Shown here piece after piece: positions 10,089 to 57,788 of a stretch of 64,000 nt of DNA (positions within the stretch are counted from its first letter, which is position 1; each line of letters begins with the position of its first letter). Below the pieces are notes generated by a model. The model had not been told where the DNA came from, made no database searches, and saw only the letters and a list, made by a program, of their open reading frames with translations. This stretch comes from Chromobacterium haemolyticum DSM 19808 (GTDB taxonomy: Bacteria; Pseudomonadota; Gammaproteobacteria; Burkholderiales; Chromobacteriaceae), in assembly GCF_000711885.1 (NCBI RefSeq), contig NZ_KL543995.1:244010-308009 (forward strand). The letters run 5' to 3'. The translations under genes and the position numbers were made by a program.

Positions 10089-10231
10089 GAGCGTGTTGAC
10101 GATCTCGCGAGAAAAAGCGAGACAAGACGAAAACAGCGGAGAAAGTGGCACGTACATGGGGTACATGAGCGTTTCGACACTGTACTCACCGTGTCGAGTC
10201 TGACGAATCGCAGCAGATCGTAAACAGGTTC
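10089..10231. mobile_element. Family 1 inverted-repeat element (MITE-like), copy a
   Basis: This is a 143-bp element with terminal inverted repeats: GAGCGTGTTGACGATCT at the left, and GAACCTGTTTACGATCT reading in from the right. The interior has the family core AGCGAGACAAGACGAAAAC. The flanks are TGA on the left and TTG on the right, so no target duplication survives here. It fills much of the 327-bp fumC-acnA gap and ends 35 bases before the acnA start, so it may carry or displace acnA promoter sequence. The remaining sequence in this gap (9940-10088) shows no gene. Confidence 0.8.
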
Positions 10232-10266
10232 TTGGCTTGCATCTTGGCTTTCAACAGGAGTCCACC

Positions 10267-12939
10267 ATGTCGCTTCGTTCCGAATCCACTTTGCGTTCCT
10301 TTACCCTGGCCTCGGGCCAGTCCTGTCAATTTCATTCGCTGCCGGCCCTGGCGGAGCTGGGTATCGGCGATGTCAGCCGGCTGCCGGTGTCGCTGCGCAT
10401 CGTGCTGGAGTCCTTGCTGCGCCATCTGGACGGCCAGCGCGTCGGCGAGGAACATGTGCGCCAGTTGGCGGGCTGGCGGCCGCAGGCGCCGCGCAGCGAG
10501 GAGATCCCCTTTGTGGTGGCGCGCATCGTGCTGCAGGATTTCACCGGAGTGCCGCTGCTGTGCGATCTGGCGGCGATGCGCTCGGTGGCCGAGCGCTTCG
10601 GCAAGCCGCCCAAGCGCATCGAGCCGCTGGTGCCGGTGGATCTGGTGGTGGACCACTCGGTGCAAGTCGACCACTTCCGCGAGAACAACGCTTTGGACCT
10701 TAACATGAAACTGGAATTCCGCCGCAACGCGGAGCGCTACCGTTTCATCAAATGGGGAATGCAGGCCTTCGACACCTTCAAGGTGGTGCCGCCGGGCATC
10801 GGCATCGTGCATCAGGTGAACCTGGAATATCTGGCGCGCGGGGTATTGAGCAAGGACGGCGTGTATTACCCGGACAGCCTGGTGGGCACGGATTCGCACA
10901 CCACCATGATCAACGGCCTGGGTGTGGTGGGCTGGGGCGTGGGCGGCATCGAGGCGGAAGCCGGCATGCTGGGCCAGCCGGTGTATTTCCTGACGCCGGA
11001 CGTGGTGGGCGTGCATTTGAAGGGCAGGCTGCGCGAGGGCGTGACCGCCACCGACTTGGTGCTGACCGTCACCGAGCTGCTGCGCAAGGCGCAGGTGGTG
11101 GGCAAGTTCGTGGAGTTCTACGGCGCAGGCGCGGCCTCGCTGACCTTGCAGGACCGGGCTACGCTGGCGAATATGGCGCCGGAGTACGGCGCCACCATGG
11201 GTTTCTTCCCGCCGGACGAGCAGACCGCCGCCTATCTGACCGCCACCGGACGCAACGAAGCGGAGGTGGACGCGTTCCGCCGCTATTTCCAGGCGCAGCA
11301 GATGTTCGGCATGCCGCAAGAGGGCGAGATCGATTACAGCAGCGTGTTGGAACTGGACCTGGCCACGGTGGTGCCCAGCGTGGCCGGGCCGCGCCGTCCG
11401 CAGGACCGCATCGCCTTGCCGCAGCTGAAGCCGCGTTTCACCGAGCTCTTGCATCAGCCGGCCAAGGCCGGCGGCTACGGCAAGAACGAGGCAGGCGGTT
11501 TCAGCGGCAAGCTGCGCCACGGCTCGGTGCTGATCGCGGCGATCACCTCCTGCACCAACACCTCCAACCCGGGGGTGATGCTGGCCGCCGGCTTGCTGGC
11601 GCAAAAGGCGGTGGCGCGAGGGCTTAGCGTGGCCAGCCATATCAAAACCTCGCTGGCTCCCGGCTCGCGGGTGGTGACGGACTACCTGGGCAAGGCGCAT
11701 TTGCTGGCGCCGCTGGAGCAACTGGGTTTCCGCGTGGCCGCCTACGGCTGCACCACTTGCATCGGCAACGCCGGCCCGCTGGATCCGGAATTGGAGAACG
11801 AGGTCAGCGGTCAGGATTTGATCTGCGCTTCGGTCTTGTCCGGCAACCGCAACTTCGAGGCGCGCATCCATCCGGCAATCAAAGCCAACTTCCTGATGAG
11901 TCCGCCGCTGGTGGTGGCCTTCGCCATCGCCGGCCGGGTGGATATCGATCTGGAACATGAGCCGCTGGGCGTTGGCGTGGATGGCAAGCCGGTGTACCTG
12001 CGCGATATCTGGCCCAGCCAACAGGAAGTGGGAGAGGCTTTGCTGCAAGCTACGGACGCGGCCACTTACCGCCGGCTGTACCAGGATTTCGCCAGCGGCA
12101 ACCCCTTGTGGAACGACATTGCCGCCAGCGTGGGCGAGGTCTACGGTTGGGAGCCGTCCAGCTATATCGCGGAGCCGCCGTTCTTCCAGAATTTCGCGAT
12201 GCAGCCCACGGCGCAGCCGCCCATCCGCGGCGCGCGCGCCTTGGCGATCTTCGGCGATTCGGTGACCACAGACCACATCAGCCCGGCCGGCTCGATCAAG
12301 CCCAGCTCGCCGGCCGGTCTGTATCTGCAGGCGCAGGGCATCACGCCCGGCGATTTCAACAGTTACGGCTCGCGCCGAGGCCATCACGAGGTGATGATGC
12401 GCGGCACATTCGCCAACGTGCGCATCCGCAACCTGATGCTGGCACCGGATGCGGACGGCAAGCCGGTGGAAGGCGGCCTGACCCTGTTGCAGCCGGACGG
12501 CGAGCAGATGTCGATTTACGACGCGGCGATGACCTATGTGCGCGCCGGCACGCCGACGCTGATCTTCGCCGGCGAGGAGTACGGCACCGGCTCCAGCCGC
12601 GACTGGGCCGCCAAGGGCACGCGGCTACTGGGCGTGCGCGCGGTGGTGGCCAAGAGCTTCGAGCGCATCCACCGCTCCAACCTGGTGGGCATGGGGGTGT
12701 TGCCGCTGCAGTTCCTGGACGGCGACAGCGCCGCCGGCCTCAAGGGCGATGAAACCTTCGAGCTGCGCGGGCTGGAGGACGGCATTGAGCCGCGGCAGCG
12801 GGTGCGCCTGCTGATCCGCGACGCCGCCGGAGGCGAACGTGAACTGCCCTTGCTGCTGCGCATCGACACGCCGGTGGAAGTGGATTACTACCAACACGGC
12901 GGCATCCTGCCTTATGTATTGAGGCAGTTGCTGGCCTGA
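10267..12939 (+). CDS. acnA: Aconitate hydratase A
   Basis: AcnA (890 residues) interconverts citrate and isocitrate with a [4Fe-4S] cluster. The cluster cysteines are C429 ([10 protein letters not shown]) and C495/C498 ([11 protein letters not shown]). The swivel domain motif [20 protein letters not shown] is near the C-terminus. The start at 10267 is preceded by AGGAG; an in-frame ATG at 10237 falls close to the upstream inverted-repeat element and gives an atypical leader. Full length for the AcnA/IRP1 class. The family-1 element ending at 10231 forms the proximal promoter region. Confidence 0.96.
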
Positions 12940-12962
12940 GCGCCGTATTTTGAACGGCGCTT

Positions 12963-56392: not shown

Positions 56393-56402
56393 GGAGTAAG
56401 CA

Positions 56403-57587
56403 ATGCAACAGCAAGACATCGTGATCGTGGGCATGGCGCGCACCGCCATGGGCGGCTTCCAGGGCGCTTTGGCGGCCAAGACGGCGGCGGAGCTGGGCGC
56501 GGCGGCGATCCAGGCCGCGGTGGAGCGCGCGGGCGTGCCTGCGGCGGACATCGACGAAGCCATCGTCGGTTGCGTGTTGCCGGCCGGCCAGGGCCAGGCG
56601 CCGGCGCGCCAGGCGGCGCTGGGCGCCGGCCTGCCGCTGGCGGTGAACTGCACCACGGTCAACAAAATGTGCGGTTCCGGCATGAAGGCGGCCATGCTGG
56701 CCCATGATCTGCTGCGCGCAGGCAGCGCGCGGGTGATGGTGGCCGGCGGCATGGAGAGCATGAGCAATGCGCCCTATCTGATGACCAAGGCGCGGGCCGG
56801 CTTACGGCTGGGCCATGGCGAGATCAAGGACCACATGTTCCTGGACGGCTTGGAGGACGCTTACGACAAGGGCAAGTTGATGGGGGTGTTCGCCGAATGG
56901 TGCGCCGAGAAGTACGGCTTCAGCCGCGAGGCCCAGGACGCTTTCGCCATCGCCTCGCTGAACCGCGCTCAGGCGGCGATCCGCGACGGCCTGTTCCGTG
57001 ATGAAATCACCCCGGTGACAGTGAGCGGCCGCGGGGGAGAGCAGGTGGTGGATACCGACGAGCAGCCCTTGAAGGCCAACGTCGACAAGATCCCGACGCT
57101 GAAGCCGGCGTTCAAGAAGGACGGCACGGTGACGCCGGCCAACGCCAGCTCCATTTCCGACGGCGCCGCCGCGCTGGTGTTGATGACGGTGGAGGAGGCG
57201 GCGCGCCGCGGCTTGCGGCCGCTGGCCCGCATCGTGGGTCACGCCACCCACGCTCAGGAACCAGGCTGGTTCACCACCGCGCCGGTGGAAGCGATCCGCA
57301 AGCTGCTGGCCCAGGCGGGCTGGAGCGCCGGCGATGTGGATCTCTACGAGATCAACGAAGCCTTCGCCGTAGTGACGATGGCGGCGATGCACGACTTGGG
57401 CCTGCCGCACGACAAGGTCAACGTGCATGGCGGTGCCTGCGCGCTGGGCCATCCCATCGGCGCCTCCGGCGCGCGCATCATCATCACCCTGCTGTCGGCG
57501 TTGCGCCAGCGCGGCGGCAAGCGCGGCGTGGCCAGTTTGTGCATAGGCGGCGGCGAGGCCACCGCGATGGCGCTGGAGTTGCTGTAA
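56403..57587 (+). CDS. Acetyl-CoA C-acyltransferase (thiolase)
   Basis: This is a 394-residue thiolase. The acyl-accepting cysteine is C90 in NKMCGSGMKAAM. The catalytic His lies in NVHGGACALGHPIGASGARI and the second Cys in SLCIGGGEATAM. It is probably degradative, next to an acyl-CoA regulator. Its TAA stop at 57585-57587 is itself the target duplication of the next inverted-repeat element. Confidence 0.95.
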   Translation: MQQQDIVIVGMARTAMGGFQGALAAKTAAELGAAAIQAAVERAGVPAADIDEAIVGCVLPAGQGQAPARQAALGAGLPLAVNCTTVNKMCGSGMKAAMLAHDLLRAGSARVMVAGGMESMSNAPYLMTKARAGLRLGHGEIKDHMFLDGLEDAYDKGKLMGVFAEWCAEKYGFSREAQDAFAIASLNRAQAAIRDGLFRDEITPVTVSGRGGEQVVDTDEQPLKANVDKIPTLKPAFKKDGTVTPANASSISDGAAALVLMTVEEAARRGLRPLARIVGHATHAQEPGWFTTAPVEAIRKLLAQAGWSAGDVDLYEINEAFAVVTMAAMHDLGLPHDKVNVHGGACALGHPIGASGARIIITLLSALRQRGGKRGVASLCIGGGEATAMALELL

Positions 57588-57788
57588 GAGCCTGTTCACG
57601 ATCTTTTCGAGAGGGGTCATGACCCAAGGCTGAATCCGCCGTCAAATCGCTCAAACAGGGTAGCCGCTCAAGACCTCGGGCCTGCCACCCGACGGCAGGT
57701 TTGAAGAGGCCTGGGGCGCGTCGGATACGTGGCTTCCTGTGTATCAAGCCGTGTTTCAAAGCACGGACGAAAGATCGTACACAGGTTC
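57588..57788. mobile_element. Family 1-ended element with an unrelated interior (201 bp), TAA duplication at a stop codon
   Basis: The ends are GAGCCTGTTCACGATCTTTT and, read inward from the right, GAACCTGTGTACGATCTTTC, matching at 17 of 20 positions. TAA occurs at 57585-57587 (the thiolase stop) and at 57789-57791. The interior does not share the AGCGAGACAAGGCGAAAAC core of the other members, so it is either another subfamily or an internally deleted insertion sequence. Confidence 0.85.

Follow-up and report, generated by a model that had tools for sequence, protein, structure and literature searches.

One of the closest described systems for the insertion sequence that shares its ends with the element considered here is ISLrh, an insertion sequence (IS) of the IS1031 subgroup of the IS5 family from a host of the Lactobacillus group. 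According to the available passages of its description (PMC12016507), it is 857 bp long, has 17-bp ends GAACCTGTCTAGTATCT and two overlapping frames, and inserts at TNA with a 3-bp target site duplication (TSD). Here we describe a short hairpin-shaped element from a 64,000-nt stretch of the genome of Chromobacterium haemolyticum DSM 19808 (contig NZ_KL543995.1, positions 244,010 to 308,009, below referred to as the window). There are well over a hundred copies of this element in the genome, and 105 of the 218 copies analyzed in several species are flanked by a triplet that coincides exactly with the stop codon of a neighboring gene (TAA in 71 and TGA in 34 cases).

The host genome (5.03 Mb, 63 contigs) contains 183+187 matches to the end sequence with at most two mismatches, compared to 1+0 in the control, and 69+88 exact matches to the 18-base core, compared to none. 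The elements are mostly 138-151 bp long with 17-bp ends, being too short to encode a transposase, as miniature inverted-repeat transposable elements (MITEs) are. The census covers stretches C1, most of C2, and C3 of the host genome (1.19 Mb together with the window) and 400 kb of Chromobacterium alkanivorans, with 86 and 27 near full-length copies, respectively; non-overlapping matches to the profile used for the search numbered 112 and 29. Genes were predicted with our own codon-usage script instead of a standard gene caller; two stop-linked genes are only 31 and 36 amino acids long, and a few gene scores are low. At least 80 named loci, found with a pattern from the left half of the element and forming neither a full nor an unbiased sample, were added to the stretches, and the resulting 224 copies were reduced to 218 by dropping loci L113-L142 and duplicates. 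Two ACGATCT-type ends are present in 142 of these copies, two AAAGTCT-type ends in 34, and one end of each type in 31, the remaining 11 being undecided.

A perfect 3-bp duplication flanks 123 of the 218 copies, and in all 123 it has the form TNA. Among the 51 duplicated copies located away from stop codons, C is found before TNA in 73% of cases and G after it in 71%, hence the favored target is CTNAG with the central TNA duplicated. Empty sites were sought in sister species for 13 copies; six could be aligned at the chosen cut, five of them with a single clean TNA, and four of these five are at gene stops. The four at gene stops are:

L160 versus C2:153065, gene of 290 amino acids
L191 versus C2:74645, gene of 310 amino acids
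L206 versus C2:43926, gene of 382 amino acids
L156 versus C3:66208, gene of 727 amino acids

In the two cases from L156, where there are two copies in tandem, the host genome has one copy, and the site is thus empty for only one of the two.

Location at a stop codon is characteristic of 72 of the 123 copies with duplications. Of all 218 copies, the stop-linked ones number, by group, 36/86 in the host genome, 34/70 in C. alkanivorans, 15/25 in the C. haemolyticum group, 14/28 in C. aquaticum, and 6/9 in others. Ten further copies overlap the stop by one base. Three of them are clear TAG cases, where the first G of the element completes the stop after a perfect TTA duplication; in three TAA or TGA cases the edge of the element may be off by one, and four have imperfect far flanks. 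When similar sites are collapsed (60-bp flanks more than 70% alike, a rule that also merges some tandem or nested copies), 107 of 193 sites are stop-linked, the ten one-base overlaps included. Only one of the 218 copies lies inside an open reading frame, a weak one. Moreover, no insertions were observed in coding TNA sites of the host and C. alkanivorans stretches, compared to 40,668 open sites (coding sites were judged on present-day gene calls, and a gene-clipping insertion is not counted as coding).

The CTNAG motif explains a part of this siting, as 136 of the 457 noncoding CTNAG sites in the host stretches are stop codons. A pure motif effect was rejected: according to the motif-weighted expectation for the host genome, stops constitute 0.19 of noncoding sites, while they accommodate 23 of the 41 copies with TSDs. 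Likewise, the expected share of stops in the combined stop and 3' zone is 0.34, and the observed numbers are 23 and 9. In the host and C. alkanivorans together, stratified by the motif and the middle base, the odds ratio of stops versus the next 150 nt is 3.6, and 30 copies with TSDs are located at stops, compared to 17.0 expected (as many in 0 of 20000 random draws). CTWAG sites are occupied in 8 of 58 cases at stops, 6 of 85 in the 3' zone, 4 of 106 in other spacers, and 0 of 179 in coding regions. Finally, for TWA sites preceded by C or followed by G, occupancy is 18/237 at the stop, 5/79 at 1-15 nt and 6/501 at 16-150 nt from it. As sites at 1-15 nt are occupied about as often as stops, what is favored is the immediate end of the gene, and not the stop codon in particular.

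The ends of the element are also found on a longer element with transposase frames:

L009:1478-2327, IS5-family element of 850 bp with two 17-bp AAAGTCT-type ends, GAGCCTGTTCAAAGTCT and GAACCTGTTCAAAGTCT, and TSD TTA

Its frames match DUF4096 (5e-22), DDE_Tnp_1 (2.1e-31), and transpos_IS5_3 from NCBIfam (4.7e-44); no solved structure matched the transposase frame. The second frame is at +1 across an A6 run, which is identical in copies from two other genomes. All 18 distinct ends observed beside the transposase C-terminus abut TNA. In the host genome, a related transposase (85% identical over 107 amino acids) occurs at nine contig edges beside ACGATCT-type ends, a pattern expected of a collapsed multicopy IS. 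Each of the two end variants is found on copies of the IS as well as on MITEs. Among the matches listed, transposases at least 68% identical to the query are present only in genomes G000, G004, G005, and G013, each with at least 17 exact ends; among 19 genomes of the genus, there are dozens of exact ends in six, 17 in G013, and at most six in each of the other twelve. By its domain matches, the partner IS is an IS5-family element with a DDE transposase, and its resemblance to ISLrh suggests placement in the IS1031 subgroup. The MITEs are likely mobilized by this IS5-family transposase.

Palindromic structure, largely intergenic location and high copy number are also features of repetitive extragenic palindromes (REPs) and the mosaic elements formed by them (BIMEs), which are associated with the RAYT tyrosine transposase and are not known to have a target duplication. 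In the available part of the description of GTAG REPs (PMC3733652), their ends likewise often supply TAG stops. Still, it is very improbable that the elements described here are palindromes of this type spread by a tyrosine transposase, as the 17-bp inverted terminal repeats are common to the DDE-transposase IS, and exact 3-bp duplications and clean empty sites are features of transposons.

The most probable explanation, to which we assign a probability of about 0.78, is a family of hairpin MITEs mobilized by an IS1031-type element, with CTNAG as the target and selection sparing insertions at gene ends. Non-autonomous hairpin elements of ~140 bp would be cut and pasted by an IS5-family, IS1031-type transposase with the same 17-bp ends. 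Their target is CTNAG, of which the central TNA is duplicated, and many noncoding CTNAG sites in this GC-rich genome are stop codons. If TNA is TAA or TGA, the stop is restored by the duplication, and if the stop is the TAG of TTAG, it is restored by the first base of the element, G. An insertion at a stop would survive selection because the protein is unchanged and the downstream sequence remains whole, while coding insertions would be lost and insertions deeper in spacers thinned out. Selection would then be the likely cause of the excess at gene ends.

Several observations weigh against this explanation. One of the six aligned empty sites lacks TNA. In three of 58 copies a called gene ends more than one base inside the element, so that genes may have been clipped by a part of the insertions. 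Taken by itself, C. alkanivorans shows no significant excess of stops over the 3' zone (seven copies at stops and seven downstream, p 0.26), the excess over all noncoding sites being significant (p 0.013). As for the partner IS, a full-length copy with ACGATCT-type ends was not seen, such copies stopping at contig edges; genomes G001 and G012 are rich in ends, yet no transposase match was found there, and G013, with a transposase and 17 ends, has no exact core copy. Moreover, the conserved half of the element at stops points against the gene in 81 of the 107 collapsed sites (81:26, p 9e-8), which selection on position only does not predict, and the bias is reversed in non-stop copies that follow exactly one gene at a distance of 1-150 nt (22 pointing against it and 39 along it, p 0.04).

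The bias does not follow the purine strand of TNA (29:22), and this candidate cause was rejected. The far flank starts with an end-like 10-mer in 21 of 81 antisense stop copies and in 0 of 24 sense copies; this reflects either tandem or earlier insertions at one site, or targets that resemble the ends.

The orientation bias at stops requires an asymmetric cue, and such a cue would be available if the transposition complex were led to stops or 3' ends, for example by terminating ribosomes, RNA polymerase, strand opening, or a longer recognition sequence. Active targeting of this kind is also in line with the approximately 3.6-fold excess of stops over the 3' zone that persists after stratification, and the occupancy gradient past the stop, which fits selection sparing gene ends, is compatible with targeting as well. 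One more argument for it comes from a sister species represented by a single contig (G011), which has a third family of elements of 266-269 bp with the same ends and another interior (L241-L270, L283-L302); the main core has one exact match in this genome, and a close transposase is absent. In 50 loci or stretches around a part of at least 72 ends, 28 paired same-end elements were scored, 19 of them from the 266-269-bp family; 15 of the 28 (10 of the 19) are at stops, one being of the TAG type. In these 15 the orientation is 7 against the gene to 3 with it, with five not assigned, and duplications are present in 26 of the 28 elements, all 26 being TNA. Therefore, stop siting goes with the ends rather than with the interior. 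On the other hand, the stop itself need not be read, given the similar occupancy of sites at 1-15 nt; only three of the 18 IS ends are at a stop, each of them seen from one side; and, apart from CTNAG and the end-like sequence, no clear host motif emerges from the flank profiles. On balance, guidance to stops or 3' ends is unlikely, and the particular version in which the IS1031-type machinery recognizes gene ends, with copies arriving at stops in a preferred orientation and the duplication rebuilding the stop, is a little less likely still.

The explanation by CTNAG insertion and selection sparing gene ends should also be compared with one in which the structure of the element matters. The ~140-bp element forms a single long hairpin whose arms carry compensatory changes. 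In one copy, L105:1356-1495, the fold extends over the whole length, with energies of -63.0 and -67.2 kcal/mol on the two strands (z-scores -8.4 and -8.8). In 41 copies of 140 bp (selected from 88 by thinning to <93% identity), 89.0% of cells pair and 20 of 51 pairs are changed on both sides. Double-changed cells number 111, whereas shuffles give 44.7 and slid partners no more than 19, though the counted structure is the fold of one of the 41 copies, which by itself favors it over slid versions, and the cells count sequences, not events, a few subfamily changes recurring across many copies. RNAalifold applied to 197 copies yielded no structure, presumably due to alignment gaps. The stable fold, the double changes and the prevailing antisense orientation at stops would all be expected if the hairpin acted in the mRNA tail as a stabilizer, an RNase III site or a part of a terminator, with copies in the useful place and orientation being retained. 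Such a selected function is quite unlikely. The core strand is the more stable one (median -59.7 compared to -50.6 kcal/mol for the other strand in 25 sampled copies), yet mRNA at stops mostly carries the less stable strand; no T-run terminator is seen in the element by eye; and covariation may also be explained by arm correction at the DNA level or by a few old subfamily changes inherited by many copies.

The window itself contains 12 matches to GAACCTGTTCACGATCT with at most three mismatches, compared to 0.01 expected, and the following elements:

10089..10231, plus strand, MITE copy of 143 bp; flanks TGA and TTG, i.e. no intact duplication
14142..14284, plus strand, MITE copy of 143 bp; AAAGTCT-type ends, the right one degenerate; TSD TTA
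28330..28467, plus strand, MITE copy of 138 bp; one AAAGTCT-type and one ACGATCT-type end; TSD TAA
31621..31760, minus strand (by the core), MITE copy of 140 bp; TSD TAA; 12 nt past the solute-binding-protein gene 30835-31608
31764..31815, minus strand, MITE remnant of 52 bp, the second copy in tandem after the preceding one; flanks TAA and TAA
49134..49276, minus strand (by the core), MITE copy of 143 bp; TSD TCA; 31 nt past the gene 47369-49102
57588..57788, plus strand, element of a second family with the same ends, 201 bp; TSD TAA, which is the stop codon of the thiolase gene 56403-57587

Two of these seven contact a stop: the element at 57588 and the remnant at 31764, which contributes its last base to the TAG stop of the LuxR-type gene 31815-32606 (minus strand), the TA coming from the flank. 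None of the full-length main-core copies in the window touches a stop, and the pattern emerges only in the wider census.

The initial annotation of the window, made from its sequence, had listed seven clear copies at these positions, and re-reading confirmed their coordinates and flanks, including identical TNA flanks in all but the copy at 10089 (six of seven). Five of them stand as such copies, while the one at 31764 is a remnant and the one at 57588 shares only the ends, its interior coming from another family. Further copies, which the annotation expected to be found with the terminal repeat, are provided by the 370 genome matches, and the TNA flanks, which it left to be compared with chance, exceed it in the census. 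Its proposal that these are MITEs moved by an IS5-family transposase of the IS1031 type is the best reading, as the 850-bp IS5-family element, found when a transposase with matching ends was looked for, has such ends, and ISLrh is alike. The stop-codon pattern, the hairpin and the CTNAG motif are additional to the annotation, which missed all three.

The interior of the element at 57588 (loci L271-L282) has at least ten matches in the host genome and, among the matches listed, 3 to 42 in five of the six further genomes tested, with the maximum in G005, and none in G013; these counts are based on at most 40 scored candidates per genome, and one element can yield several matches. The tandem pair at 31621-31818 has one TAA in common, and the junction of the neighboring ends, C-TAA-G, is itself a CTNAG target, which may be the cause of nesting there. 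Units of ten bases of the GAACNNGTTC type, bordered by TNA on either side, are observed at L009:2328-2343 and in the flanks of C2:340907 and L185:7416; they resemble footprints left by excision, or copies of the element shortened by extreme deletion. Outside these repeats, the Rfam family 5_ureB_sRNA matches positions 2953-3238 (127 bits) inside long open reading frames of both strands, which may be plain coding conservation rather than a small RNA.

The 18-base core is present in 32 of 61 genomes of the host family and in 10 of 399 genomes drawn from the order, nine of these ten belonging to the same family. Among the matches listed, named core hosts are C. alkanivorans, C. haemolyticum, C. 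aquaticum, three Vogesella species, Crenobacter caeni, and two Craterilacuibacter. A genome from another family of the order (G081) has five exact core matches, where horizontal spread is possible.

The system suggests how a mobile element might multiply to many copies in a gene-dense genome while doing little harm, because its short motif often coincides with stop codons, which are rebuilt by the duplication or the first base. It is countable, and thus may serve for separating target preference from selection, as well as for testing the role of long hairpins at mRNA 3' ends. In the annotation of Chromobacteriaceae genomes, genes ending right next to these repeats are to be expected.

Compared with described systems, the ends of Correia/NEMIS elements of Neisseria differ in sequence from those of the Chromobacterium MITEs, and GTAG REPs are not known to have a target duplication. 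Among the papers listed from the open-licence literature, nothing on point was found on stop-codon siting of such elements or on Chromobacterium MITEs, in agreement with the initial annotation, which knew of no such family in this kind of genome. The available parts of PMC2229807 and PMC10969869 describe Correia/NEMIS as similar in length (~100-200 bp), stem-loop structure, terminal inverted repeats and abundance (more than 120 copies per genome), and different in having 24-bp ends with a TA motif, with no mention of stop-codon siting there. GTAG REPs, as far as covered by the same part of PMC3733652, resemble our elements in that the repeat termini often provide the TAG stop of the flanking gene, but are palindromes of 20-40 bp. 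MITEAba12 of Acinetobacter, according to the consulted part of PMC6382973, also has ends common to a resident IS, but is 113 bp long and generates 9-bp duplications without a sequence trend. The partner IS, of 850 bp, shares with ISLrh the length of the ends, the two frames, and the 3-bp TNA duplication, and 14 of 17 bases are alike in the ends (GAACCTGTCTAGTATCT in ISLrh and GAACCTGTTTACGATCT here); ISLrh differs in its Lactobacillus-group host and in the frameshift, given by its authors as -1, whereas the second frame here is at +1 across A6, and no MITE is mentioned in these passages of PMC12016507. Features that are new here are the long hairpin with compensatory changes, the CTNAG target, and the siting at stop codons that are rebuilt by the duplication.

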